From the NCBI GenBank assembly GCA_019747015.1, contig JAIERI010000028.1, forward strand, positions 1-40,640: a stretch of DNA of 40,640 nucleotides, given 5' to 3'. The notes under the pieces were generated by a model that was not told the DNA's origin, made no database searches, and saw nothing but the letters and a program-made list of their open reading frames with translations. A program made the translations under genes and the position numbers. Below are positions 198 through 40,640 of this stretch, one piece after another (positions within the stretch are counted from its first letter, which is position 1; each line of letters opens with the position of its first letter). Source of the stretch: Xanthobacteraceae bacterium (GTDB lineage: Bacteria > Pseudomonadota > Alphaproteobacteria > Rhizobiales > Xanthobacteraceae).

Positions 198-427
198 AAC
201 CCTCACCATAGTCAGGCCATTTGGCTTCATGCCGGCGGGCAATTAAAATGAACGATCAGCGCAAATCAAGCGATTTGGCCGCAATCCCGCGTCAATTGCC
301 CCTGTTCGGTGTTTCTTTCATCCTGTAGTGACATCTCTACATCTGTCGGCATCCCCGCTGGCTCGAGATTTACCAAAAAATGCCCCGCCGAAGCATTCGC
401 GACGGGCACGGTTTAAGCAGAATCCTC

Positions 428-1027
428 ATGGAATTGCCGTTCATCACGCCGCTCGTCGGCAAAATCGTGTGGCTCGCAGGCGTCATCGGATGGTTCATCA
501 TCCGCTATCCACACGATCGCCGGGCGCGGCGCACACCCAAGGCGCGCCGCTACGTGGGAATCCGCGAACTTATTTCCCTGGCGATCTCGGCATCAGGGCT
601 CGGGCTCATTCCGGCGGTTTATGTGTTCGCCGGCGCGCCGCGGTTCGCCGATTATCCGTTTAGTATTGTGGCGGCGATTTTGGGCACGGCGATCTTTGCT
701 TTCGCGCTCTGGCTGTTTCACCGCACGCACACCGATCTCGGACGCAACTGGTCCGTCACTCTCGAAGTTCGCAACCAGCACAGCCTGGTCACCGAGGGGG
801 TCTATAACCGCGTCCGGCATCCGATGTATTCGGCGTTCTGGCTTTGGGGCGTGGCGCAGGCCGCGCTGCTTCCCAACTGGATCGCCGGTCTTGCGGGACT
901 GGTCGGCTTCGGAACGCTGTTCTTCCTGCGCGTCGGCAATGAAGAGCGGATGATGCTTGAGACCTTCGGCGACGAATACCGCGACTATATGAAGCGAACG
1001 GCGCGCATCATTCCGGGGATTTACTGA
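428..1027 (+). CDS. Isoprenylcysteine carboxyl methyltransferase (ICMT/PEMT)-family membrane protein
   Basis: Multi-TM protein with C-terminal ..GVYNRVRHPMYSAFWLWG...GNEERMMLETFGDEYRDYMKRTARIIPGIY, typical of ICMT-like methyltransferases. Likely start is the MELPF Met inside the 380 ORF. Confidence 0.85.
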   Translation: MELPFITPLVGKIVWLAGVIGWFIIRYPHDRRARRTPKARRYVGIRELISLAISASGLGLIPAVYVFAGAPRFADYPFSIVAAILGTAIFAFALWLFHRTHTDLGRNWSVTLEVRNQHSLVTEGVYNRVRHPMYSAFWLWGVAQAALLPNWIAGLAGLVGFGTLFFLRVGNEERMMLETFGDEYRDYMKRTARIIPGIY

Positions 1028-1863
1028 TCCGCGCCAAGCTCAAGGCGCTGCGGATTTTGCATCAGGTCACGGACCAGCGACAGGAAGCGGCCGACCTCAT
1101 AGGCGTCGGTGAGACGATGATCCGCGCGCAGGAATAATGGCATCACGCGGATCGACACAAACCGGTCCTCACGCTGCACCACCTTGGTTTCGACCGGCCC
1201 GAGCGTGAGATTTAGAGAGTCGCAGCTGTCGGGAAAGCGGCTCGGCTTGTACATGCGCATCGGCGGTGCGCCGGATGACGAAAGATCATTGACCATCGTG
1301 CTGCCGCCGCGCAATTCGTCCAGACGGCCGAGCGTGGGAATCGGGAAGGTGCGATCGATGAAGCCGTAAAACCGCATAAATTGCCCGAATACAAAACTTG
1401 GAAGACGGCGCATCTTGTTAAGATCGCGATCGCGGCCAATTCCGCCCCGTCCCGCCTGCAACATCCGTTGCCAAACCTCCTGTCCGATCTGTTCAAGACT
1501 TTTGGTGTTTGCGGATGAGATAAGCATGACGTCGATTTCTTTATTTCCGCGATGAACGAATGCGGTGCGAATGTTCACGGCGCGAAACGAATAGATCCGG
1601 TGGCCAACCAGACGAACGTTCATTTGCGGAAACTGCGCGAGCGCAAGTGCCGTCGCGCGAACCAGTGCATGCGAGGTGGTCACGAGGGTGTCCCCTGTGC
1701 GATTGCGTTCGCGCAGGAACGCAAGCAGGGAATCAGCCTCGATCTCCGTACCCATCACCATGACGGGATCGACGTGGCTCGCTTTCGACGCGTAAAGATA
1801 ATAGCGATTGTAGAGCGGAACCTGGTCGTAAGGGACAGGCTTTTTGTTTAAAGGCCACTTCAT
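1021..1863 (-). CDS. Stand-alone 2-oxoacid dehydrogenase E2 / chloramphenicol-acetyltransferase-like acyltransferase
   Basis: 280 aa; N-terminal MKWPLNKKPVPYDQVPLYNRYYLYASKASHVD and C-terminal DHRLTDAYEVGRFL resembling the HxxxDG active-site motif; no lipoyl domain. Confidence 0.75.
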   Translation of the reverse strand: MKWPLNKKPVPYDQVPLYNRYYLYASKASHVDPVMVMGTEIEADSLLAFLRERNRTGDTLVTTSHALVRATALALAQFPQMNVRLVGHRIYSFRAVNIRTAFVHRGNKEIDVMLISSANTKSLEQIGQEVWQRMLQAGRGGIGRDRDLNKMRRLPSFVFGQFMRFYGFIDRTFPIPTLGRLDELRGGSTMVNDLSSSGAPPMRMYKPSRFPDSCDSLNLTLGPVETKVVQREDRFVSIRVMPLFLRADHRLTDAYEVGRFLSLVRDLMQNPQRLELGADQ

Positions 1864-1928
1864 GGCGTGACGTATATCATGCGTGAGAGGCGATTATGCC
1901 TGAGAAAATCTGGGAGGCCGATCCACCG

Positions 1929-2189
1929 TCAAGCGCCGACACCTTGGCTCTGCACCAGGCTGACGATGGCCGAAACACTGCGGAAGTTCGCCGGACTGAC
2001 GTGGTTGCTTCCAAGCTTGATGCCGTAGCGCTCCTCAAGCTGAAAGATCAAGTCAATTAACAGCAGGGAATCCAGAAGGCCCTCCTCCAGCAGATCGGTC
2101 TCCGGATCCAATGCCGGATATTGCGGGCAGCGCGAGCGCACAAATTGCAGAATATCGGCTTCGATTTGTGTCCGGTCGGGCATCTTCAA
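1929..2189 (-). CDS. Acyl carrier protein (phosphopantetheine attachment site)
   Basis: 86 aa with LLEEGLLDSLLLIDLIFQLEERYGIKL, matching the DSL carrier-protein motif. Confidence 0.85.
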   Translation of the reverse strand: MKMPDRTQIEADILQFVRSRCPQYPALDPETDLLEEGLLDSLLLIDLIFQLEERYGIKLGSNHVSPANFRSVSAIVSLVQSQGVGA

Positions 2190-2245
2190 ATTTTCCTATG
2201 TCGCACGCCGTATCGCGTCATTGGCAGGCAAATAACAGACCATCC

Positions 2246-2277
2246 AGGTTTGGGGAATTCCTAGGTTTGGGGAATTC
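2246..2277. repeat. 17-bp-period tandem duplication (AGGTTTGGGGAATTC x2)
   Basis: catccAGGTTTGGGGAATTCctAGGTTTGGGGAATTCgaag read directly; spans the stop codon of the AMP-ligase ORF. Confidence 0.9.
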
Positions 2278-3865
2278 GAAGTTTGAGCGCCGCGCGATCC
2301 ACCTTGTAGGCCGAAGTGAGTGGAAGCCTGTCGAGAACCTCGAAATGCACCGGCACCTTGTGAGACGGAAGCTCTCGCATGCAGGCGGCGCGGATTTCGG
2401 CTATGTCGATGGCGCGATCGTCCTGGGCGGCGAGGAAAAGTGCAAACCGGGTCTCTTCACTTTTGATCATCGGAAGGGCCACGGCGCGGGTATTGGGAAA
2501 CCACGCCTCAACGGCGCCTTCAATTTCAGCGGGGTGCACGCGATGCCCCTGAACCTTCACCAGCAAATTCGCGCGGCCGTCGAGGTAAAAATAGCCGTCC
2601 TCGTCACGGTGCGCCATATCTCCGGTGCTCAGCCATCCATCATCGCTCAGAACATCTTTCGTGGTCACGGCGTCCTGCCAGTAACCGAGCATTACATTGT
2701 CGCCCCGGGCGTAGAGCATCCCGACAACACCGGCGGCAAGCTCGCGGCCGCCCTCGTCTTTGACCGCGAGCGTGACGCCCGACAACGCCTTGCCGATCGA
2801 CCCGCGGCGAATCCGGAGCTGGTCTGGCGGCAGGATCGCAAGGCGCGCCGTCGCCTCCGACTGGCCGTACATCACATGAAATGTCGCGGGCGCTATCCGC
2901 GCCGCGATGTCGGCGGCAAGATCGGCGCGCAATTCGCCCCCTGCCACACTCATGTAGCGCAAGCTCGGCAGCGGCCGCTCTCCGAGTTGCCCGTATTTGA
3001 GCAGCATGCCGTAAACTTCAGGGACGGCCGAAAAACTCGTGGCGTGGAATTCCGCGATCGCCTCGACGATGGAGGCTGGAAACATCAGCGTGCCGCCCAT
3101 TGCAATCGTGGCACCGGCCAGCATATGGGTTTGCAGAATCGAGTTGCCGAACGAGTGGCAAAACGGAATCAGGACCAGCGCCTTGTCGTCGGCGCGAATG
3201 GGCAAATCCTGCAGAATCGAATTGGCGTTGGCGAGCAGATTGCGGTGGCTCAGCATCACGCCTTTCGGCACGCCGGTGGAGCCCGACGTGAAGAGCAGCA
3301 TCGCAAGATCGTCGCCGTGGCGGCGCGGCGCGGGACGCGCGATCTGCGCGCCAGCGATGTACGGCAATTCCAGCACGGTGACGGGAGAATTGTCATTCGG
3401 ATCGATCTGCTCGCGCCGCGCGATCACGACGTCTGGACGGCATTGCTCCACAATCTGCTGCCAGCGCAGCCGCTCCAGCGCCACAGGCAGCGGCACAACA
3501 ACGCAATCGGCCAGCAACGTGCCGTAAAAGGCGGCGACGTATTCGGGCGAATTCGGCAGCCGCAATGCGACGCGCGCGCCGGGCACATAATCGGGCCGCG
3601 CGCACAGATATTGCCGCACGCTCTCAGTGGCGCGCAGCAGCCAATCGTAGGAGACCACACCGGCCTTGGTTTCGATTGCGGAATGATCCGCGCGCGCACA
3701 CGCGATGTCGAAAAACGCAGTGCCGAGATCGCCAGCTTTTACATTTGAGACCGATACGCTTGAGGCTGACGCCAATTCGTTGCCGCGAACAGTTTCACTG
3801 CGCGCAGGCATGCCCGGCGGCACCGGGGCAGCGAATTGCAAGATCACCGTATCCATACGCCGCAC
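2261..3865 (-). CDS. AMP-dependent synthetase/ligase (fatty-acyl or other acid-activating enzyme)
   Basis: ANL motif LLFTSGSTGVPKGVMLSHRN, GWLSTGDMAHRDEDGYFYLDGR, C-terminal SAYKVDRAALKLR. Start may be the internal ATG at 3856. Confidence 0.9.
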   Translation of the reverse strand: MRRMDTVILQFAAPVPPGMPARSETVRGNELASASSVSVSNVKAGDLGTAFFDIACARADHSAIETKAGVVSYDWLLRATESVRQYLCARPDYVPGARVALRLPNSPEYVAAFYGTLLADCVVVPLPVALERLRWQQIVEQCRPDVVIARREQIDPNDNSPVTVLELPYIAGAQIARPAPRRHGDDLAMLLFTSGSTGVPKGVMLSHRNLLANANSILQDLPIRADDKALVLIPFCHSFGNSILQTHMLAGATIAMGGTLMFPASIVEAIAEFHATSFSAVPEVYGMLLKYGQLGERPLPSLRYMSVAGGELRADLAADIAARIAPATFHVMYGQSEATARLAILPPDQLRIRRGSIGKALSGVTLAVKDEGGRELAAGVVGMLYARGDNVMLGYWQDAVTTKDVLSDDGWLSTGDMAHRDEDGYFYLDGRANLLVKVQGHRVHPAEIEGAVEAWFPNTRAVALPMIKSEETRFALFLAAQDDRAIDIAEIRAACMRELPSHKVPVHFEVLDRLPLTSAYKVDRAALKLRIPQT

Positions 3866-4025: not shown

Positions 4026-5009
4026 TCAACTGACGATTTTGCGCGCCTTGCCTGGCGGCCTCGCGCCCAACGGCAACAGCCGCGCCGCGTCGATCAATGT
4101 CCGCTCGTACTTCGCGCGTTGCTCCCTGGCCTCTTCAGGTGTCCAGTCCCAGAAACCTGAACCGGTCTTGGTGCCGAATTTACCGGCCTCGACCAGCGCC
4201 TCGATCGAGCGGCCCGGTTTGCTGGCATTGTTCAGATGCGGATAGATCGACTTGCCCGCAGCGTAATTGGTGTCCAGCCCGGCGAGGTCTTTCTGTAATA
4301 TGGGCCCGGCCGCGATGTAGCGGAATCCGAAACCGTAGCGCACCGCCGCGTCGACGTCTTCGGGCGTCGCCAGACCCTCGTCGAGGATCGCGTAGGCTTC
4401 GCGCATCAAGGCGTGTTGCAGGCGGTTAGCCAGAAATCCCGGCACGTCTTTCGCCACGCGGATCGGTACGCAGCCGACCGATTCCATGATCGCGAACATC
4501 TTGTCCATTGTCGCGCTGTCGGTGAACTCACCGGCGACGACTTCGACCGCTGGCACCAGATGTGCCGGCAGGAAAAAATGCAACCCGCCCATCCGGTGAC
4601 GCGTTGGCAGGCCCTGCGCGATCTCGGTAATACGCAGTCCCGACGTGTTGGTTGCCAGCGGTATGCCTTCCGGCGCCAATCGATCCAATTTGGCGAACAG
4701 CTCGCGCTTGAGCGCAATCTTCTCCGGCACCGCCTCGATCAGAAGTTCGACACCGTCCCACGCCAGTTCTTCCGGCGTCGCGACCAGCGAGAATTTACCG
4801 GCGCCTGCCAACGGATCGAGCTGGCTGAGAGACAGAGCGACGCGCTCGCGCGCCCTCTCCCAGTTCGCGGTGTCGGGCTCCATCGCCCGCACTGACCAGC
4901 CGCTTCGCAGAAAGATCGCCGCGATATCGCAACCCATCAGGCCGCATCCAAGAACGATGAGCGTCTTGCTCACGCCTAGGTCTGTCACGCCTGAATCCTT
5001 CAAGACCAC
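4026..5009 (-). CDS. 3-hydroxyacyl-CoA dehydrogenase-family NAD-dependent dehydrogenase
   Basis: Rossmann motif LGCGLMGCDIAAIFLRSGW, NTSGLRITEIA, HRMGGLHFFLPAHLVPAVEVV, KDVPGFLANRLQHALMREA. Confidence 0.9.
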   Translation of the reverse strand: MVLKDSGVTDLGVSKTLIVLGCGLMGCDIAAIFLRSGWSVRAMEPDTANWERARERVALSLSQLDPLAGAGKFSLVATPEELAWDGVELLIEAVPEKIALKRELFAKLDRLAPEGIPLATNTSGLRITEIAQGLPTRHRMGGLHFFLPAHLVPAVEVVAGEFTDSATMDKMFAIMESVGCVPIRVAKDVPGFLANRLQHALMREAYAILDEGLATPEDVDAAVRYGFGFRYIAAGPILQKDLAGLDTNYAAGKSIYPHLNNASKPGRSIEALVEAGKFGTKTGSGFWDWTPEEAREQRAKYERTLIDAARLLPLGARPPGKARKIVS

Positions 5010-6124
5010 GCCTCTGCATCGAGTTTGGCGATGACCTTCTCATCGAACGCATAACCGAGACCGGGATCGGTCGGCAGTGCGAGGCCCTTGCCCGGCACTA
5101 CCTTCACCTGACGATCGATAATCCTGCGGAAGTTCAGCACCTGATCGTCTGCGAAGTACTCGACCATCTCGCCATTCGGAATCGCCGCAACCAGATGCAG
5201 ATGCAGATCGTGAAACCAGTGCGGGCACATGTTGACGCCGTAGCAGTCGGCCATCGCCGCGATCTTCTTGAACTCGGTGATGCCGCCGCAAACCGCGGCG
5301 TCGGTTTGCAGGATCGCCGCTGCGCCCTTGTCGAGCAGTTCCTTGTGACGCCAGCGGCCGGCCTCGATCTCGCCGGTCGCGACATTGATATTGATGCGCT
5401 CGGCGAGCTTTGCGTGATTGTCGATCTGGTCCGGACTGAACGGCTCCTCGATCCAGTACGGATCGTAGTCGGCGAAGCGCTCGCAATAGCGCAGCGCGGT
5501 CGGCACGTCCTGCCACGCATTGTTGGCGTCGAGCAGCAGCAGCGCATCGGGACCGATCGCCTTGCGAGCGGCAGCAACGCGTTTTTGCTCGCCCGCGGGA
5601 TCGTCACGGCCGACTTTCATCTTCACACCCTGCAGGCCGAGCGCGAGATAGGAGGCCATTTCGTCACCCAACATCTGCGGCGTCTTGCCCTCGAGATAAT
5701 AACCGCCGCTGCCATAGGCCGGCACCGGATCGCGCGTCGCAGCGCCAAGATAACGATACAGCGGCAGCTTCGCAGCCTGCGCGTTCACATCCCACAGCGC
5801 GATATCCAGAATGCTGAGCGCGCGCATCACCGAGCCGGTGCGGCCATGCAGCAGCACATCCTGATACATCTCCTTCCAGAGCAACTCGACTTCGGTGGAC
5901 TCCTTGCCGATCAGATTTGGCGCGAGCAATTCGCGCACCGCCAGCGTGACGACCTTGCCGCCGAAATTACCGGCGTAGCAGTGGCCGATGCCCTCCAGCC
6001 CGTCGTCGGTCCCGATCTTGACCAGTGCATAGTCGCGCGCCGTGACCTGGCGTTTCGAAAACGCTGTCGGACGGTCCAGCGGAACGCGAACGGTGCGGGC
6101 CTGCACCGACACAATACGAGCCAT
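5000..6124 (-). CDS. Mandelate racemase/muconate lactonizing enzyme-family (enolase superfamily) protein, probable acid-sugar dehydratase
   Basis: GVKMKVGRDD (KxK), LLLDANNAW, WIEEPFSPDQI, NVATGEIEAG, CPHWFHDLHLHL. Confidence 0.9.
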   Translation of the reverse strand: MARIVSVQARTVRVPLDRPTAFSKRQVTARDYALVKIGTDDGLEGIGHCYAGNFGGKVVTLAVRELLAPNLIGKESTEVELLWKEMYQDVLLHGRTGSVMRALSILDIALWDVNAQAAKLPLYRYLGAATRDPVPAYGSGGYYLEGKTPQMLGDEMASYLALGLQGVKMKVGRDDPAGEQKRVAAARKAIGPDALLLLDANNAWQDVPTALRYCERFADYDPYWIEEPFSPDQIDNHAKLAERININVATGEIEAGRWRHKELLDKGAAAILQTDAAVCGGITEFKKIAAMADCYGVNMCPHWFHDLHLHLVAAIPNGEMVEYFADDQVLNFRRIIDRQVKVVPGKGLALPTDPGLGYAFDEKVIAKLDAEAWS

Positions 6125-6157
6125 GGTTTCTCTCCCCTTTTATCTTGTTGGCGGCGA

Positions 6158-7861
6158 TCAGGTCGCGCGCGGGTCTTCGATCAAAAAGTCAAAGTCGCAG
6201 CCCTGGTCGGCCTGTAACACAGTGTCCTGAAACAGTTTGGCGTAGCCGCGTTTCGGTCCGGCCTTGGCGGCCGGCAGCACCTTGGCGCGGCGTTCGAGTT
6301 CGGCGGCATCGACCAGAAGTTCGACGCTGCGATTGGGGACATCGAGACGAATCATGTCACCGTTCTTCACCAGCGCGAGAGGTCCGCCTACGGCGGATTC
6401 CGGCGTGATGTGCAGCACGATGGTGCCGAACGCCGTGCCGCTCATGCGCGCGTCGGACATCCGCACCATGTCTTTCACGCCCGCACGTGCCAGCTTTTTC
6501 GGAATCGGCAAATATCCCGCCTCGGGCATGCCGGGCGCGCCCTTCGGGCCGGCGTTGCGAAGCACCAGCACGTCGTCGGCTTTGACGTCGAGATCGGGGG
6601 AATCCACGCGCTCCGTCATGTCCTGCACCGAATCGAACACCACGGCGCGTCCGGTGTGGACCATCAATTCCTTGCTTGCCGCCGATTGCTTGATCACCGC
6701 GCCGCGCGGCGCAAGATTACCGCGCAGCACTGCTATGGCGCCTTGTGCCTTGAGCGGCTTGTCGCGCGGCCGGATCACATCCTGATTGGGCACCTCTTCC
6801 GCGCGCTCGATCACATCGCCAATCGTGCCGCCGCCAACCACTGGCGCATTGAGCCTGAGCAGATCGCGCAGCTCGCGCATCAGGCGCGGCAGTCCGCCGG
6901 CATGATGGAAATGCTCCATGTAGTGCTGGCCGGACGGTTTCAGATTGACCAGTACCGGCACGTCGCGTCCCACTTTGTCGAGCATCTCGAGATCGAACTT
7001 GATCCCTGCCCGGCCGGCGATCGCGGCCAGATGCACCACACCGTTGGTCGAGCCGCCGATCGATTGCAGGATCACCAGCGCGTTGTGAATCGAATCCTCG
7101 GTAATGAGCGCACTCGGACGCGGCGTGTCGGACACCGCCATCTCCGCAGCGCGTCGTCCCGTCGCCTCGGCGAGACGCCGGCGTTCGGCATGCGTTGCCG
7201 GAACGGCTGCGGTGTAAGGCAGAGACAGGCCCATCGCCTCGGTGATGCAGGCCATCGTGCTGGCGGTGCCCATCACCATGCAGGTGCCGACCGATGGTGC
7301 AAGACGCGCGTTGATGATCTCGATCTCGTCGCCGTCGATATCGCCGGCGCGGTGGCCCCCCCACATCCGGCGGCAATCGGTGCAGGCGCCGAGCACTTCG
7401 CCGCGATGATGTCCCACCACCATCGGACCGACCGGCAGCACGATCGCTGGCAAATTGGCCGACGCCGCCGCCATGATCTGCGCCGGCAGCGTCTTGTCGC
7501 AGCCACCGATCACGATCACCGAATCCATCGGCTGCGTGCGGATCATCTCCTCGGTGTCCATCGCCATCAGGTTGCGCAGGAACATCGAGGTCGGATACGC
7601 GAAGCTTTCGTGGATGGTGATGGTTGGAAACACCATCGGCATGCCGCCAGCCAGCATCACGCCGCGCTTCGCCGCCTCGATCAAATCCGGCACGTTGCCA
7701 TGACACGGATTGAAATCGCTGTAGGTGTTGGTGATGCCGACAATCGGCCGCTCTAGCGCGTCGTCGGAATAGCCCATCGCCTTGATGAAGACTTTTCGCA
7801 GGAACAGCGAGAACTCCTGATCGCCATAACTGGTCAGTCCCTTGCGCATGCCGCGTGCCAT
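6158..7861 (-). CDS. IlvD/Edd-family dehydratase
   Basis: GITNTYSDFNPCHGNVPDLIEAAKRGVMLAGGMPMVFPTI, IGGCDKTLPAQIMAAAS, GGSTNGVVHLAAIA, MSDARMSGTAFGTIVLHITPE. Confidence 0.95.
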   Translation of the reverse strand: MARGMRKGLTSYGDQEFSLFLRKVFIKAMGYSDDALERPIVGITNTYSDFNPCHGNVPDLIEAAKRGVMLAGGMPMVFPTITIHESFAYPTSMFLRNLMAMDTEEMIRTQPMDSVIVIGGCDKTLPAQIMAAASANLPAIVLPVGPMVVGHHRGEVLGACTDCRRMWGGHRAGDIDGDEIEIINARLAPSVGTCMVMGTASTMACITEAMGLSLPYTAAVPATHAERRRLAEATGRRAAEMAVSDTPRPSALITEDSIHNALVILQSIGGSTNGVVHLAAIAGRAGIKFDLEMLDKVGRDVPVLVNLKPSGQHYMEHFHHAGGLPRLMRELRDLLRLNAPVVGGGTIGDVIERAEEVPNQDVIRPRDKPLKAQGAIAVLRGNLAPRGAVIKQSAASKELMVHTGRAVVFDSVQDMTERVDSPDLDVKADDVLVLRNAGPKGAPGMPEAGYLPIPKKLARAGVKDMVRMSDARMSGTAFGTIVLHITPESAVGGPLALVKNGDMIRLDVPNRSVELLVDAAELERRAKVLPAAKAGPKRGYAKLFQDTVLQADQGCDFDFLIEDPRAT

Positions 7862-7889
7862 GATGATGGGCCTTTTCTAAATGTTCTTG

Positions 7890-8819
7890 TTAAAGACGCG
7901 CGCGCGGATCGTGTTTCGCCAGACGCGACAGCAGATAATCGACTTCAGCCTTCGCAGCGGCGGTCAACGAATTGCCGGGCTTGCGCTGGGCGTCGCAGGC
8001 AATCGCGCCGCGCTTTTGCAGAACGTATTTGCGGGTCGCAAGGCCGACGCCCTGCTGCTGCTCGTAGCGCACCAGTGGCAGATGCGCGTCGAACAGATCG
8101 TGCGCCTCGTCGCGTTTGCCCTTTTGCTGCAGGCTGACGACATCGACCAGCATGTCCGGGAAGGCATAGCCGGTCATCGCGCCGTCGGCGCCGCGCTCCA
8201 TTTCGAAATCGAGAAACAGTCCGCCATTGCCGCACAGGATCGAAATCGGCCGCATCGAACCATCCTTCTGAAATCCGCGCACCGCGGAAATCTTCTCAAG
8301 ACCCGGCCAGTCTTCATGCTTGAGCATCACGCAGGAGGAATGGTTCTGCACGATCTGCCGGATCACTTTTGGCGTCATCACGACCGAGAGCGTCAGCGGA
8401 TAATCCTGCAAGACCCACGGAATGTCGTTGCCGATGGCCTCGACCGCCTGCGCGAAATACGTGGTGATTTGGTCGTCAGTGCGAAGGCTCGGGATCGGCG
8501 CGATCATCACGCCCGCAGCACCCGCATCCATCGACGCTTTTGCAAGCGAACGCATCGCCGCAAAGCCCGGCGCGGAAACGCCGACCACGACGGGCACCTT
8601 GCCGGCGCGTTTCACGACACGGTTGACCACCGTGAGCGATTCCTCGGGCTCGAGTTTGGGTGCTTCGCCCATGATGCCGAGGACGGTCATGCCGGTGACG
8701 CCGCACCTCAGATAAAAGTCGGTCATGCGGTCGATCGACTCGACATCGAGCCGCCCGTCGGGATGAAACGGCGTCGCCGCGATGGGGTAGACACCTGCGG
8801 CCTTTTCGTTCAACGGCAT
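7890..8819 (-). CDS. Dihydrodipicolinate synthase (DapA)-family lyase/aldolase
   Basis: AAGVYPIAATPFHPDGRLDVESIDRMTDFYLRCGVTGMTVLGIMGEAPKL; Schiff-base Lys region CVMLKHEDWPG. Start taken at MPLNEK. Confidence 0.9.
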   Translation of the reverse strand: MPLNEKAAGVYPIAATPFHPDGRLDVESIDRMTDFYLRCGVTGMTVLGIMGEAPKLEPEESLTVVNRVVKRAGKVPVVVGVSAPGFAAMRSLAKASMDAGAAGVMIAPIPSLRTDDQITTYFAQAVEAIGNDIPWVLQDYPLTLSVVMTPKVIRQIVQNHSSCVMLKHEDWPGLEKISAVRGFQKDGSMRPISILCGNGGLFLDFEMERGADGAMTGYAFPDMLVDVVSLQQKGKRDEAHDLFDAHLPLVRYEQQQGVGLATRKYVLQKRGAIACDAQRKPGNSLTAAAKAEVDYLLSRLAKHDPRARL

Positions 8820-8823
8820 TGGT

Positions 8824-9552
8824 TCAGCCTTTCTTGCTCGCTTCGTAGCGCGCCTTGTTTTCTTCATTGGGTGGATACAGACCGGGCAACGGCGTGCCCT
8901 TCTCGACTTCCGTCATGATCCACGCTTCCAGCCGCTCCTGCTCGGGCGCAGCGGCGACCACCTCGTCCACAAGGTCCGCCGGAATGAGAACCGCGCCGTC
9001 ATCATCGATCACGATGACATCGTTCGGGAACACCGCGACACCGCCGCAGGCGATCGGCTCCTGCCAGCTTACGAATGTGAGCCCGGTGACGGACGCAGGC
9101 GCTGCGGCGCCCTGACACCAGATCGGCAGGCCGGTGGTCAGCACACCGGCGACGTCACGCATCACGCCATCGGTCACGAGCGCGGCAACCTTGCGCCTGG
9201 CCATGCGGGCACAAAGAATGTCGCCGAAAATTCCGGCGTCGGTGACGCCCATCGCGTCGGCCACGGTAATGCAACCTTCCGGCATCGCCTCGATGGCGGC
9301 GCGGGTCGAGATTGGCGATCCCCACGAGGCTGGGGTGGCGAGATCCTCACGCGCCGGAACGAAGCGCAGCGTGAACGCGCGGCCCACAACGCGCTTCTGG
9401 CCGGGCTTCAGCGGACGCGAGCCGCGAATCCAGACATTGCGCAAACCTTTCTTCAAAAGGATGGTGGTGATCGTCGCGTTTGCCACTTTCGACAAAACAT
9501 CGACAACCTTATGATCTAGCGGCAAGGTGGCCGGAAAATTCTTGGGGTCCAT
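8824..9552 (-). CDS. RraA-family protein (HMG/CHA aldolase-like)
   Basis: MDPKNFPATLPLDHKVVDVLSKVANATITTILLKKGLRNVWIRG..., VADAMGVTDAGIFGDILCARMARRKVAALVTDGVMRDV, VFPNDVIVIDDDGAVLIP. Start at ATG 9552, not the long 10200 ORF. Confidence 0.92.
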   Translation of the reverse strand: MDPKNFPATLPLDHKVVDVLSKVANATITTILLKKGLRNVWIRGSRPLKPGQKRVVGRAFTLRFVPAREDLATPASWGSPISTRAAIEAMPEGCITVADAMGVTDAGIFGDILCARMARRKVAALVTDGVMRDVAGVLTTGLPIWCQGAAAPASVTGLTFVSWQEPIACGGVAVFPNDVIVIDDDGAVLIPADLVDEVVAAAPEQERLEAWIMTEVEKGTPLPGLYPPNEENKARYEASKKG

Positions 9553-9608
9553 GGGTAACTCCGTTCTTTTCGATACAAAGGATGGTCCTGCGGACCGAGA
9601 TGGATGTC

Positions 9609-10601
9609 TCAGGCGCTTTTGGTTTTGCAGGTTTTGGGCCAGGGGGTTTCCGCCACCGGCGTCAGCGGGCCCTTGCCCGCGAACCACGATCGCAGATTGT
9701 CGACGACAAGCTCGCCCATCACCGCGCGGGTATGATGCGTACCCGAGCCGATATGCGGCACCAATACGACATTGGGCAGTACCAATAGCGCGAGCGGTAC
9801 ATTCGGTTCGTCGGCAAACACATCTAATCCAGCGCCGTGAATGATGCCATCGCGTAACGCATCGATCAGCGCATTCTGGTCGACGACCGAGCCGCGCGCG
9901 ACATTGATAAGGATACCGCGCGGCCCCAATGCTGCGAAAATCCCGGCATCGATCATATGCTTTGTGGCCGCACCACCCGGCACAACGGCAATCAGGGTAT
10001 CGACATCGCTCGCCATCGTTTTCAGATCGGGATAGTGCCGGTAATCGACGCCATCCTGCGGCTTGCGTGAATGATAAACGATCGGCACGCCGAAAGCGGC
10101 GATACGCTTGGCGATGGCGCGGCCGATACGGCCCATGCCAACCATGCCGATGGTCCGGTCGCGCAAGGTCTGCGTCAACGGGTAAGCACCCTTCAGCCAT
10201 TTACCGTCGCGCAGAAATCGGTCGGCCTGCGGCAATTCGCGGATCGTAGAGAGAACAAGACCGACGGTGAAATCCGCGACCTCTTCATTGAGCACATCCG
10301 GCGTGTTGGTGACGATGATGCCCCGCGCCATCGCCGCCGCGAGATCAATGGAGTCATAGCCGACACCGAAATTCGAGATGACTTCCAGCTTCGGCAGAGC
10401 GGCGATCAGCGCCGCATCGGTCCTTTGCCGCCCGCGCGTCGCAATGCCGCGGATCACGCCGCCGAACTGCGAAACGACCGACGCAAGATTTTCGGAGCCA
10501 GCCTGATACACGACAAAGTCCTGCGCCAGGGCCGCATCGACCGCGGGCATCATCTGCCCCATGCTGAGAATGTGAACTTGATCCGGCACGGCGTCTCTCA
10601 A
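9609..10601 (-). CDS. D-isomer-specific 2-hydroxyacid dehydrogenase
   Basis: ISNFGVGYDSIDLAAAMARGIIVTNTPDVLNEEVADFTVGLVL, GMVGMGRIGRAIAKRIAAFG, INVARGSVVDQNALIDAL, VLVPHIGSGTHHTR. The track start is TTG; internal GTG/ATG starts are possible. Confidence 0.95.
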   Translation of the reverse strand: MRDAVPDQVHILSMGQMMPAVDAALAQDFVVYQAGSENLASVVSQFGGVIRGIATRGRQRTDAALIAALPKLEVISNFGVGYDSIDLAAAMARGIIVTNTPDVLNEEVADFTVGLVLSTIRELPQADRFLRDGKWLKGAYPLTQTLRDRTIGMVGMGRIGRAIAKRIAAFGVPIVYHSRKPQDGVDYRHYPDLKTMASDVDTLIAVVPGGAATKHMIDAGIFAALGPRGILINVARGSVVDQNALIDALRDGIIHGAGLDVFADEPNVPLALLVLPNVVLVPHIGSGTHHTRAVMGELVVDNLRSWFAGKGPLTPVAETPWPKTCKTKSA

Positions 10602-11326
10602 TGCTGCAGGATCTTGGACAGGAACTGCTGCGCGCGATCGCTGCGCGGCGTTCCAAAGAATTCGTCCTTGGCCGCGTCCTCGACGATGGCGCCCTGATCC
10701 ATGAACACGATACGGTTGGCGACGCGGCGGGCGAATCCCATTTCGTGGGTCACCACCGCCATCGTCATGCCTTCTTGCGCCAGCGCCACCATCACATCCA
10801 GAACCTCGTTGATCATCTCCGGATCGAGCGCCGATGTCGGCTCGTCGAACAGCATCGCCACCGGATCCATGGCCAGCGCGCGGGCAATCGCCACGCGCTG
10901 CTGCTGGCCGCCCGACAATTGCGCGGGGAATTTCTGTGCCTGCACCTTCAGGCCCATCCGGTCGAGCAGCTTGTCGGCGCGGGTTTCGGCCTCGGTGCGA
11001 CTGCGGTTCAAAATCTTGATCTGCGGCAGCGCGATGTTTTTCAGCACCGTCATGTGCGGAAACAATTCGAAATTCTGGAACACCATGCCGATCCGCGAGC
11101 GCAGCTTCGGCAGATCGGTACTCCTGGCACCGACCGAGATGCCGTCGACGAAGACTTCGCCTTTCTGAAACGTTTCAAGCCCGTTCATGCATTTGATCAA
11201 AGTACTCTTGCCGGAGCCGGACGGGCCGCAGATGACGACAACCTCACCCCTGCGAATCGTGAGAGAGCAATCGTCCAGCACCCGAAAGGCACTGTACCAC
11301 TTGCTGACATGGCTCATCTCGATCAT
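10598..11326 (-). CDS. Amino-acid-type ABC transporter ATP-binding protein
   Basis: Walker A GPSGSGKSTLIKCMNGLE, signature LSGGQQQRVAIARALAMDPVAMLFDEPTSALDPEMINEVLDVM. Confidence 0.96.
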   Translation of the reverse strand: MIEMSHVSKWYSAFRVLDDCSLTIRRGEVVVICGPSGSGKSTLIKCMNGLETFQKGEVFVDGISVGARSTDLPKLRSRIGMVFQNFELFPHMTVLKNIALPQIKILNRSRTEAETRADKLLDRMGLKVQAQKFPAQLSGGQQQRVAIARALAMDPVAMLFDEPTSALDPEMINEVLDVMVALAQEGMTMAVVTHEMGFARRVANRIVFMDQGAIVEDAAKDEFFGTPRSDRAQQFLSKILQH

Positions 11327-11976
11327 ATCGCATATCTCCGCTGCAACCTGCTCACGAGCCGCGAGGCGGTGAAACAGATCACCAAAAAGGTCACCGCGAC
11401 CGTGGTGTACAACTCGATCGGCCGGTTGGTGCTGTTGGCGATCACGTCGGCGGTGGTAAGGAAGTCGCGGACGCCGACGATGTAGACGATGGAGGTATCC
11501 TGAAACATGATGATCGCCTGCGTCAGCAGCACCGGCAGCATGTTGCGGAACGCCTGCGGCAACACGACATGGCGCATCATATTAAGATGGGTGAAGCCCA
11601 TCGCGAGGCCGGCCTGCACCTGCCCGCGTTTGACGCTGGAGATACCGGCGCGGATGATCTCGCAATAATAAGCCGCCTCGAACAGGATGAAAGCGATCAG
11701 CACCGACGAGTAGGCGTCGATCGGATGACCGACGATTTTCGGCGTCAGCACATAGAACCAGAAGATCACCAGAATCAGCGGCAGCGAGCGCAGGAAGTTG
11801 ACATAGCTGCCCGCCAGCGCCGCGACGATCCACACACTGGACATCCGCATTAGCGCCAGACACGTCCCCAGAAACATGCCGCCCGCGATGGCGATCAGCG
11901 TCAGCTGGAAGCTGATCAGAAGGCCGTGGAGCAATAGCTCCTTGTGCTGCAGAAGGACGTTGAAATCGAAATGCAT
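11323..11976 (-). CDS. Amino-acid-type ABC transporter permease
   Basis: HisM/GltK-like: RSLPLILVIFWFYV, EAAYYCEIIRAGISSVKRGQVQAGLAMGF. Confidence 0.93.
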   Translation of the reverse strand: MHFDFNVLLQHKELLLHGLLISFQLTLIAIAGGMFLGTCLALMRMSSVWIVAALAGSYVNFLRSLPLILVIFWFYVLTPKIVGHPIDAYSSVLIAFILFEAAYYCEIIRAGISSVKRGQVQAGLAMGFTHLNMMRHVVLPQAFRNMLPVLLTQAIIMFQDTSIVYIVGVRDFLTTADVIANSTNRPIELYTTVAVTFLVICFTASRLVSRLQRRYAI

Positions 11977-12698
11977 CAGCGCCCCCCCGCGAAGGCAGTA
12001 CCGGCAATTCGGGTCTTGCGTTCAAGGAAGCGCATCAGGACGATGACGCACAGCGTGACGCAGGAATAGAGTACGGTCGCGGCCGCGAACGGCTCGAACG
12101 ACTGAAAGGTGTATTCCTCGATCTGCCGCGCCGCCGCGGTCAATTCCATCACGCCGAGCGTCAACGCCAGCGACGAGTTCTTGAATACGCCGAGAAAATC
12201 ATTGGTCAGCGACGGGATCACCGTGCGGTAGCCGATCGGCAGCAACACGTAGCGATAGACCTGCGCTTGTGTGAACCCCATCGCCAGCGCTGCTGCGCCC
12301 TGCCCGCGCGGGATCGACTGGATGCCCGAGCGAACCTGTTCGGCGACGCGCGAGGCTGTATAAAATCCAAGTGCCACCACAGCCGTCCAGAATTGCGGAT
12401 CCGGCATCTCGCGCTTGACGTAACGCTGCGCGTCGGCCGGCAGGAGTTCGGGAATAACGAAGTACCAGAGGAACATCTGCGCCAGCAGCGGAATATTGCG
12501 GAAGATTTCGACATAGACGGTGCCGATGGTTCGCAAGATCTTGTTATCAAGAGTCCGCAGAACACCGATCACCGAGCCAAGCGAAAACGCAATCAGCCAG
12601 GCGTAGATCGCCAGAATGCAGGTCGTGGTAAAGCCGGAGACGATCCAGCCGGCATAGGGATCGCGAAACAGCATTCCCCAGTCCCAGGAATAATTCAT
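11976..12698 (-). CDS. Amino-acid-type ABC transporter permease
   Basis: VEIFRNIPLLAQMFLWYFVIPELLP, ASRVAEQVRSGIQSIPRGQGAAALAMGFTQAQVYRYVLLP. Confidence 0.93.
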   Translation of the reverse strand: MNYSWDWGMLFRDPYAGWIVSGFTTTCILAIYAWLIAFSLGSVIGVLRTLDNKILRTIGTVYVEIFRNIPLLAQMFLWYFVIPELLPADAQRYVKREMPDPQFWTAVVALGFYTASRVAEQVRSGIQSIPRGQGAAALAMGFTQAQVYRYVLLPIGYRTVIPSLTNDFLGVFKNSSLALTLGVMELTAAARQIEEYTFQSFEPFAAATVLYSCVTLCVIVLMRFLERKTRIAGTAFAGGR

Positions 12699-12747
12699 CC
12701 CTGCTTCCCCACGACCTTAACTCCCAAGCACTTATTAGATGAGCGAG

Positions 12748-13635
12748 TCAGTCTGCAAAGGCATTCAGCCGCAGTGCGTTCTTGAGATCGTCGTTCATCG
12801 GCAGATTGATATTGGTCGGACCCGGGTCGAACCATTTCTTGTACATCTCGAAAATCTCGCCCGAGGTGTAGAGGTTCGACATCACCCTGAGACCGATCGC
12901 ACGCAGCTCGGTGTCATTCTTCGGAATCATGATGGAGAACGGATCGTAGGAATAAAACGGGCCGACGACTTCATAGTCGTCTGGGTTCTTCGCCATGGTG
13001 CGGATGCCGTACAGCACCACGTCGTTCGAGGTGTAGGCGTCGGCGCGGCCCTGTTCGAGATTGAGCAGCGCCTGCGGATGATCCTTCACCTTGACGACAT
13101 TGACCTTGAGCTTGCGCTTTTCGATTTCGGCCAGCGCGGCCTTCTCATTGGTGGTTCCGGCCAGTGCCAGCAATGTCTTGCCGCCATCAAGGTCTTCGAT
13201 CTTGGTGATGCCCGAACCCTTGCGCACCAGAAGTTTTGTGCCGGTGATGAAGTCTGGAGTGAGGAACTCGACCTGCTTCATGCGGCCGGTGGTAATGGTG
13301 GTGGACGAACATTCCGCGTTGGCCGTGCCGTTGGCGATCACCGGAATACGGGTCTGCGGGGTGATCGGGACATATTTGATGTCGATCTTGTCGAGCTTGT
13401 ACTCGGCCTTGATCGCCTCGGCGATCTTCAGACAGATGTCGATGGCGTAACCCTTGGGGGTGCCGCTGGAGTCGATGAAGGAGAACGGGACGGATTCCTC
13501 GCGATAAGCAATCGCGAAGGTCTTGCTGGCGACAATCTTCTCCAGCGAACTGCCGGCAGATTGCGCGAATGCGGATGGACTGGTGGCGGCAGAGATCGCG
13601 ATGACGCCCGCGACAGCGATAGCGCGTTTCAACAT
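12748..13635 (-). CDS. Amino-acid-type ABC transporter substrate-binding protein
   Basis: Signal peptide MLKRAIAVAGVIAISAATSPSAFAQ; FAIAYREESVPFSFIDSSGTPKGYAIDICLKIAEAI. Start set at the signal-peptide Met (track ORF extends to 13731). Confidence 0.93.
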   Translation of the reverse strand: MLKRAIAVAGVIAISAATSPSAFAQSAGSSLEKIVASKTFAIAYREESVPFSFIDSSGTPKGYAIDICLKIAEAIKAEYKLDKIDIKYVPITPQTRIPVIANGTANAECSSTTITTGRMKQVEFLTPDFITGTKLLVRKGSGITKIEDLDGGKTLLALAGTTNEKAALAEIEKRKLKVNVVKVKDHPQALLNLEQGRADAYTSNDVVLYGIRTMAKNPDDYEVVGPFYSYDPFSIMIPKNDTELRAIGLRVMSNLYTSGEIFEMYKKWFDPGPTNINLPMNDDLKNALRLNAFAD

Positions 13636-13721
13636 GGTGTCTCCCTGGGACGATTGCCTTTTGGCCGTTGGTTTCCGGCTCATTAATTTCCCGGGCGGTA
13701 ACGTCCTGTGCGCCTGTCCGC

Positions 13722-13740
13722 TTGTCAACAATATTATTGA
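13722..13740. promoter_or_regulatory. Candidate GntR-type operator in the divergent intergenic region
   Basis: TTGTCAACAATATTATTGA: TTGT-CA-ACAA fits the GntR GT..AC scheme, and TCAAcAATATTaTTGA is a near-perfect 16-bp palindrome; lies between the ABC operon and the GntR gene. Confidence 0.5.
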
Positions 13741-39140: not shown

Positions 39141-40640
39141 TCATGCGGCCTTGAGTTCAGCTTCCGCCAGCCGGCGTAAGCCAGCGCGATCGATCTTGTT
39201 CGTGGAAGCAAGCATCATCTCATCGAGGAACCAGATTCGGCGGGGATGCTGATAGGCCGGTGCGTTTGCCAGCACGTAGCGCTTGAGCGTGTCTTCATCC
39301 ACCGACGCGCCAAGTCGCCGCACGACGAAGGCGACGGGCTTTGTACCCTTGATATCGTCGTCCACCGGAACCACGCAGGCCTGAAGCACGTCGGGATGTG
39401 TTTCCAGCACTGCCTCGACTTCGCCGGGAAAGATGTTCTCCCCTCCGCTCACGAACATGTCGTCCGAGCGGCCCATGAAATAGTAGAAACCATTCTCATC
39501 GCGCCGGAAAACGTCGGCCGTATCGTAGTAGCCATCCGCTGTAATGGGAGAACGCACATCCGGGCGGTTATGATAGCCGAGCATGACCGCCGGACTTTTC
39601 ATCTGCAGCACGCCACTTGTAGGCGCGTCCGGGCCGACCAGACGAACCGATACCTCGGGGTGAGGATAACCGACTGAACTGATAGGCGTGGCGAGACCGT
39701 CCGGATGATCGGTAAAAGCGATAGGGCCGCCTTCGGTCGTACCATAGGCGTTGATGATGCGTGCGTTAGGCAGGAGCGCGCGAATTTGCCGGGCCAAGGT
39801 ATCGTTCACCGGCGCGGACCCCATGCGGACAGTGCGCACGCTGGACAGGTCGGCGAAAGCCAGTGCTTCTTTTTCACGCAGCATCATGGCGATCATTGGC
39901 GGCACCGCGGTGAGCCAGGTGCAGCGGTAGCGGCTGATCGCTTCGATGTAGGGTACGGCCTTGAACTGGGGCAACATGATCGCCGTCGCGCCGCTCGCAC
40001 ATACCAGCAGCGACAAGGCCAGGGCATTCATATGATAGAGGGGGGCCGCGATCAGCACGCGCTCGTTATGCAGGTCAGTCTCCTGCTTGCGCGTATTTGC
40101 GACCCACAGATGGGCCGTGTGCGACAGCAAAACCCCTTTGGGACGCCCCGTCGAACCGGATGTATAAAGGCTGAGAGCGGGCTCATCCGCGCGCGGCGTC
40201 ACCGGCACAAAACGACCGGGGTCCAGCCAGGATGATATGCTGCCCTGACCTGTCCCATCGAACGTCACGAAAGACACGCCTGGAAACTTCTCCGGATCCA
40301 CCGAGGCGCGGCGCTCATCGTCATGAACAACCAGACGAGCGTCGCAATCGGCGATCACTTGAGCAATCGTCACAGGAGGAAATTTGAAATTGATCGGGAC
40401 CGGCACTACGCCGGCCCGCATGGCGCCGAGCAGGAGCGCCACATATTCCGGCCGATTGGCGGACAGGATTGCGATCCTTTCGCCGCGCAGGACTCCAGCC
40501 TTCATGAGACCGCGAGCGAAAGCGTCGGCCATGGCGTCCAGCGCACCGCGCGTCATAACAAATTCTGTTTTGTCCGGCCGCACGCCAATGATAACCGGAC
40601 GCGAAGGGTCGTCGGTGCGGCGAACGAAGTTACCGAGGTT
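39141..40640 (-). CDS. AMP-dependent synthetase/ligase (acyl-CoA synthetase), N-terminus cut by window edge
   Basis: [71 protein letters not shown]. Frame stays open to 40640 (..[28 protein letters not shown]), so the track start at 40583 is internal. Confidence 0.95.

Follow-up and report, generated by a model that had tools for sequence, protein, structure and literature searches.

The locus described here raises the question of how an adenylating ligase, a carrier protein and an acyltransferase built on the catalytic core of a 2-oxoacid dehydrogenase E2 could act together, and on what acceptor. The three genes, hereafter the trio, lie next to one another in a 40.6-kb contig from a fragmentary genome of the genus Afipia; the window is the whole stretch of DNA that was analyzed, 40,640 nucleotides. 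A previous sequence-only reading had described three contiguous minus-strand genes for a ligase, a carrier protein with a DSL motif, and a lipoyl-free transferase with HRLTDA in place of HxxxDG. All three open reading frames were confirmed in position and strand:

2261-3865, minus strand: AMP-forming ligase of the ANL type (534 residues as listed; Pfam AMP-binding, E 6.3e-66)
1929-2189, minus strand: free-standing acyl/peptidyl carrier protein (86 residues; Pfam PP-binding, E 4.7e-7)
1021-1863, minus strand: stand-alone E2/CAT-type acyltransferase (280 residues; Pfam 2-oxoacid_dh catalytic domain, E 1.4e-16)

The Pfam scan recognized a single domain in each protein, and the intergenic gaps within the trio are 71 and 65 bases. 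Alignment of six orthologues places the start of the ligase probably at the ATG at 3856, which would give a protein of 531 residues, and alignment of relatives likewise places that of the carrier protein probably at the ATG at 2183. The ligase contains the motifs TSGSTG, YGQSE, STGD and YKVDRAAL, and the phosphopantetheine site of the carrier protein is LLDSLLL, in which Asp-Ser-Leu is invariant in an alignment of seven orthologues. Neither condensation nor ketosynthase domains nor multidomain modules were found in the 18 window and 15 neighbor ORFs scanned, which are part of all ORFs, and the earlier statement that the trio stands without PKS or NRPS genes holds for this set. Defense-system models gave zero matches. 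A 545-residue plus-strand ORF antisense to the ligase (2111-3748) was taken as an antisense shadow and not as a gene; long antisense frames lie opposite many genes of the window and look like composition shadows.

Distribution and conservation of the trio

The trio, with its order kept, is present in 7 of 29 Afipia genomes (the window genome, G450, G140, G440, G441, G155 and G443). A. carboxidovorans and strain 1NLS2 are among the carriers. The genus assignment follows from G440, a member of the same genus group, whose third contig shares 2301 bases at 100% identity with the repAB region of plasmid pHCG3 from A. carboxidovorans. The earlier suggestion that the genes belong together is borne out by their co-occurrence, since within the genus every ligase match at E≤1e-60 falls in one of the seven transferase-bearing genomes, with the ACP between the two genes. 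The transferases of the seven carriers are 60 to 77% identical, and the ligase gene of G140, which contains a run of N, is not fully readable, leaving six full-length ligase orthologues. For each trio gene, dN/dS against relatives is 0.13 to 0.23, indicating purifying selection on each; because the gene order is also conserved in seven genomes, the trio is beyond a chance arrangement.

Six of the carriers (all but that of the window, whose genome gave no rpoB match and was left off the tree) cluster in an rpoB tree together with the trio-less genome G107, with uneven support (0.70 for the whole group and 0.01 at one inner node). No orthologue of the trio was found outside Afipia in the sampled genomes of the family (200), order (249), class (385) and phylum (399), about 1,200 genomes of which some recur between samples. 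Transferase searches outside the genus gave weak partial matches only, nearly all of them within longer frames that have the length of a usual E2, and a transferase search of plasmids returned no match. In a proteome paper on A. carboxidovorans OM5, a cultivable laboratory strain, trio-type products are absent by name, and the enzymes mentioned are all others. Every NCBIfam match listed for the three proteins lies far below its cut-off, so the trio is not an annotated pathway there. The trio is a conserved, narrowly distributed module in which known enzyme types occur in an uncommon combination.

Substrate class of the ligase

In an ungapped stretch aligned with gramicidin synthase A domains, the position of the amino-group-binding Asp is Ser or Ala in all six full-length ligase orthologues, and the replaced residue belongs to an H-S/A-F-G motif of the kind found in enzymes that activate acids. 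Because this Asp is missing, the substrate is probably a carboxylic acid other than an alpha-amino acid. The nearest solved relatives by score are NRPS domains and feruloyl-CoA synthetase, followed by a group that includes malonyl-CoA and oxalyl-CoA synthetases. Among the best family matches are TIGR03098 (exosortase-A-associated acyl-CoA ligase; 246 bits, cut-off 592) and PRK07514 (malonyl-CoA synthetase; 191 bits, cut-off 558), enzymes to which the ligase is related with scores far under their cut-offs, and we take its ranking near malonyl- and oxalyl-CoA synthetases as a weak hint of the substrate and not as an assignment. Arg341, close to where the substrate pocket is expected, does not vary between the carriers in the alignment and would suit a second carboxylate; we have left it out of the evidence. 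The AlphaFold model of the ligase (pLDDT 46) is too poor for reading the pocket.

An E2-type catalytic core with an additional segment

The PF00198 catalytic domain is recognized in the transferase at 61.1 bits against a cut-off of 23. The HRLTDA motif spans residues 249 to 254, of which His249, Arg250 and Asp253 are invariant, and the usual Gly of HxxxDG is Ala. The AlphaFold model has low confidence (pLDDT 48), such that the active site and pocket cannot be checked on it; the 50 best Foldseek matches listed for it are all E2 components from 2-oxoacid dehydrogenase complexes. The CAT fold that had been assigned to this protein is supported by its sequence and agrees with these matches, even though they derive from a model of that confidence. 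The transferase shares with the 2-oxoacid dehydrogenase E2 core its domain family, its HRxxD catalytic motif and its best fold matches, but it differs in having neither a lipoyl domain (none in Pfam across the whole 280-residue protein) nor an E3-binding domain, in the replacement of Gly by Ala, in an insert of about 40 residues, and in a gene that is partnered with an ACP rather than with E1 and E3, no genes for which were identified near it in the conserved neighborhoods. Each of the eight genomes examined for them has two ordinary E2 genes at other loci, so the transferase is not the dehydrogenase E2 of these genomes and is free for another role.

The insert, at residues ~143 to 182, is without counterpart in E2 structures. 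In the alignment with 3mae, the span from residue 142 to residue 233 of the transferase corresponds to 153 to 201 of the structure, which makes the transferase longer there by about 43 residues. In all seven transferases the insert opens with a cationic amphipathic segment (hydrophobic moment 0.4 to 0.5, net charge +4 to +5), whose character suggests a membrane-docking element and therefore a membrane-near acceptor, although the insert could instead have a role other than docking.

A probable carrier-protein-dependent acyl-transfer pathway

Taken together, the three genes probably, though not assuredly, form a dedicated acyl-transfer pathway that runs through a carrier protein. The ligase would adenylate a carboxylic acid, probably not an alpha-amino acid (acid + ATP -> acyl-AMP), and would load the acyl group as a thioester onto the phosphopantetheine of the carrier protein encoded beside it to give acyl-S-ACP; alternatively, it could make a CoA ester, with the ACP loaded by other means. 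The cationic amphipathic segment would dock the transferase at the cytoplasmic membrane face, and His249 would act as general base while an acceptor hydroxyl (or amine) attacks the thioester to form an ester (or amide). Since the transferase would dock at the membrane, it probably acts on a lipid or on something linked to one. This pathway is favored by neighboring genes on one strand that together supply every activity needed, all three of which occur in the same seven genomes in one order and under purifying selection, by the ligase catalytic motifs and the missing amino-group Asp, by the invariant carrier Ser and HRxxD together with the amphipathic segment in every carrier, by the ordinary E2 genes elsewhere that leave the transferase free, and by the fact that a comparable ligase-carrier-transferase logic is established in AlmEFG and Dlt. 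Against it stand the Ala at the usual E2 Gly and the AlphaFold models, which are too weak for an active-site check. Even if malate, discussed below, is not the acyl group, an E2 catalytic core that works with an ACP in place of lipoamide would be an instructive case of central metabolism lending an enzyme to another task.

In Vibrio cholerae AlmEFG, the ligase AlmE charges AlmF with glycine, which AlmG then transfers to a lipid A acyl chain. The trio follows the same three-part logic of an adenylating ligase, a dedicated carrier protein and a small-acyl transferase. AlmE, however, activates glycine, whereas the trio ligase is without the amino-group-binding Asp, and AlmG is an LpxL-type acyltransferase, not E2/CAT, whereas the trio transferase carries the 2-oxoacid_dh domain only and falls outside the LpxL-type family. 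Because the ligase type and the transferase family differ, the trio is AlmEFG-like in its working but is not a member. The Dlt system (DltA-DltC-DltB-DltD), with which the sequence-only reading had drawn a loose analogy, also pairs a ligase with a small carrier protein, and this much of the analogy stands. Yet the carrier protein scores 27.5 bits against DltC (cut-off 68), DltA is absent among the best 25 NCBIfam families listed for the trio, and neither a DltB-type membrane acyltransferase nor DltD was found among the neighbor genes scanned. DltB is a membrane protein of a family that differs from the E2-like transferase, and Dlt modifies Gram-positive wall polymers by D-alanylation of teichoic acids, whereas the trio ligase probably does not use an amino acid. 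Judged by this analogy of parts, AlmEFG rather than Dlt is the closest working analogue. The earlier proposal of a complete acyl-transfer pathway thus survives in its core, as a dedicated ligase, carrier and transferase remain the best reading and co-occur, but it needs amending in its closest analogue, in the probable non-amino-acid specificity of the ligase and in a possible fourth gene. The OlsH/OlsI ornithine-lipid pathway, considered on account of a weak ACP match, was rejected because that pathway relies on a GH3-like enzyme together with an alpha/beta-hydrolase.

Candidate acyl groups and acceptors

The lipid A of A. carboxidovorans contains 26:0(25-OH) that is almost totally esterified with malic acid, 26:0[25-O-(C=O)CH2CH(OH)COOH] (PMC7663294). 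The lipid A ion with malate is at m/z 2454.7 and the malate-free ion reported in the same paper at m/z 2338.75, a difference of 116 units. In 2020, its authors called malic acid new to the literature as a tertiary lipid A substituent, and the enzymes that attach tertiary groups to the VLCFA of rhizobial-type lipid A were at that time unexplored (PMC7663294). We speculate, tentatively and with the balance of probability against it, that the trio comprises a malate ligase, its ACP carrier and an E2-like enzyme that esterifies the (omega-1)-hydroxyl of the C26 VLCFA. The ligase would activate malate via the CH2-adjacent carboxyl, the ACP would carry the malyl group, and the E2-like enzyme would act on the C26 chain while on AcpXL or already on lipid A. 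A. carboxidovorans both carries the trio and has malylated lipid A, the trio and the known malate case are confined to the same Afipia branch, and the chemistry fits in calling for a small acid, an ester to a hydroxyl, cytoplasmic enzymes and a membrane-near acceptor. That malonyl- and oxalyl-CoA synthetases rank among the solved enzymes closest to the ligase points the same way, but this ranking is a weak substrate hint only. Moreover, a lipid A structure was found for one Afipia species only, and lipid A genes are not adjacent to the trio in the stretches read. Other rhizobial lipids A bear 3-hydroxybutyrate, acetate or a hopanoid on the same type of hydroxyl, and the trio was not found in the sampled relatives, suggesting that a different enzyme class may do the attachment generally. 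Hopanoid attachment by the trio was itself considered, as Bradyrhizobium needs such an enzyme, which a 2017 paper still counted among the missing ones (PMC5613085), and was rejected because the trio is absent from the sampled relatives. Should malylation prove correct, for which the chance is modest at best, the trio would be the first pathway known to place a tertiary acyl group on an alphaproteobacterial lipid A VLCFA, and would show an E2 catalytic core re-purposed as a membrane-docking malyltransferase for outer-membrane modification. The trio brings the question of how one such tertiary lipid A group is attached down to a single locus in a cultivable strain.

A second possibility, likewise rather unlikely, is that the trio serves the synthesis or decoration of a small molecule for export, such as a siderophore-like compound or another secondary metabolite, the ligase and carrier supplying an acyl or aryl starter that the transferase joins to a soluble partner. 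An EntS/MFS_3-type MFS exporter is encoded just upstream of the trio in four carriers, a ferrichrome-type TonB receptor gene lies near it in one, and the carrier protein is weakly similar to the petrobactin AsbD and cispentacin AmcB families. The exporter and receptor are not conserved, however, the exporter being missing in the window, G140 and G450; no condensing, NRPS or siderophore synthetase gene is present among the ORFs scanned, and the amphipathic segment favors a membrane-near acceptor over a soluble one.

The neighboring membrane methyltransferase

One gene accompanies the trio throughout:

380-1027, plus strand: ICMT-type (isoprenylcysteine carboxyl methyltransferase family) membrane methyltransferase (NCBIfam NF040696, 283 bits, cut-off 160)

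The ICMT gene is convergent to the transferase gene, with a 7-base overlap in the window. It adjoins the trio in all seven carriers, as its sole constant neighbor, tail-to-tail and with an overlap of 4 to 7 bases in the window and four others. Among trio-less Afipia genomes, ICMT is present in 2 of 22, and no match was found in G107, a member of the carriers' rpoB group. The hypergeometric chance of this association is about 2e-5 by our own arithmetic, a figure overstated because of shared descent. The ICMT may be a fourth member of the trio unit through a putative functional link. On the other hand, it occurs without the trio in 96 of 200 family genomes, and outside the genus it usually adjoins a gene for a roughly 400-residue alpha/beta-hydrolase-like protein, so the trio may be the later arrival beside it.

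ICMT enzymes methylate carboxylates on lipid-anchored substrates, and one could imagine that a membrane molecule receives a dicarboxylic acid from the trio and that the ICMT then methylates the carboxylate left free. This four-gene arrangement seems to us doubtful, more so than malylation alone. The constant tail-to-tail placement, the lack of a match in G107 and the activity of ICMT enzymes on lipid-anchored substrates speak for it; the many family genomes with ICMT alone suggest an older neighbor, and the published lipid A malate is a free acid, with a 14-unit series ascribed to the acylation pattern. That the E2-like protein is a relic of a 2-oxoacid dehydrogenase complex or an accessory core to one, the three genes sharing no function, is very improbable despite its sole recognized domain being E2 catalytic and its best structural matches being E2 cores, given the absence of a lipoyl domain and of identified adjacent E1/E3 genes, the two ordinary E2 genes elsewhere, and the joint occurrence of the three genes in all carriers under purifying selection.

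In other genera of the family (loci L050-L077), the ICMT gene is usually preceded by one for an alpha/beta-hydrolase-like protein of ~400 residues, and a secreted 'VYLLRGLxNVFS' hydrolase-like gene is often nearby. In trio-carrying Afipia, the trio occupies one side of ICMT in place of this hydrolase-like arrangement.

Variable surroundings

The genes upstream of the trio vary between carriers, with the MFS exporter in four, an Fe-type alcohol dehydrogenase in three and a glycosyltransferase in one. In the window, this side is occupied by the following:

4026-13731, minus strand: catabolic gene set of sugar-acid type, upstream of the trio (absent beside the trio in other carriers)

Its genes encode a 3-hydroxyacyl-CoA dehydrogenase-like protein, a mandelate racemase/MLE-type dehydratase, an IlvD/Edd-type dehydratase, a DapA-type aldolase, an RraA-like protein and an amino-acid-type ABC transporter binding protein. 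Near the far end of the window (39141-40583, minus strand) lies a second AMP-binding ligase, with AMP-binding_C, that nothing in the analysis connects with the trio. Between 24624 and 28290, two FAD-dependent oxidoreductase genes, both PF12831, lie near each other on opposite strands.
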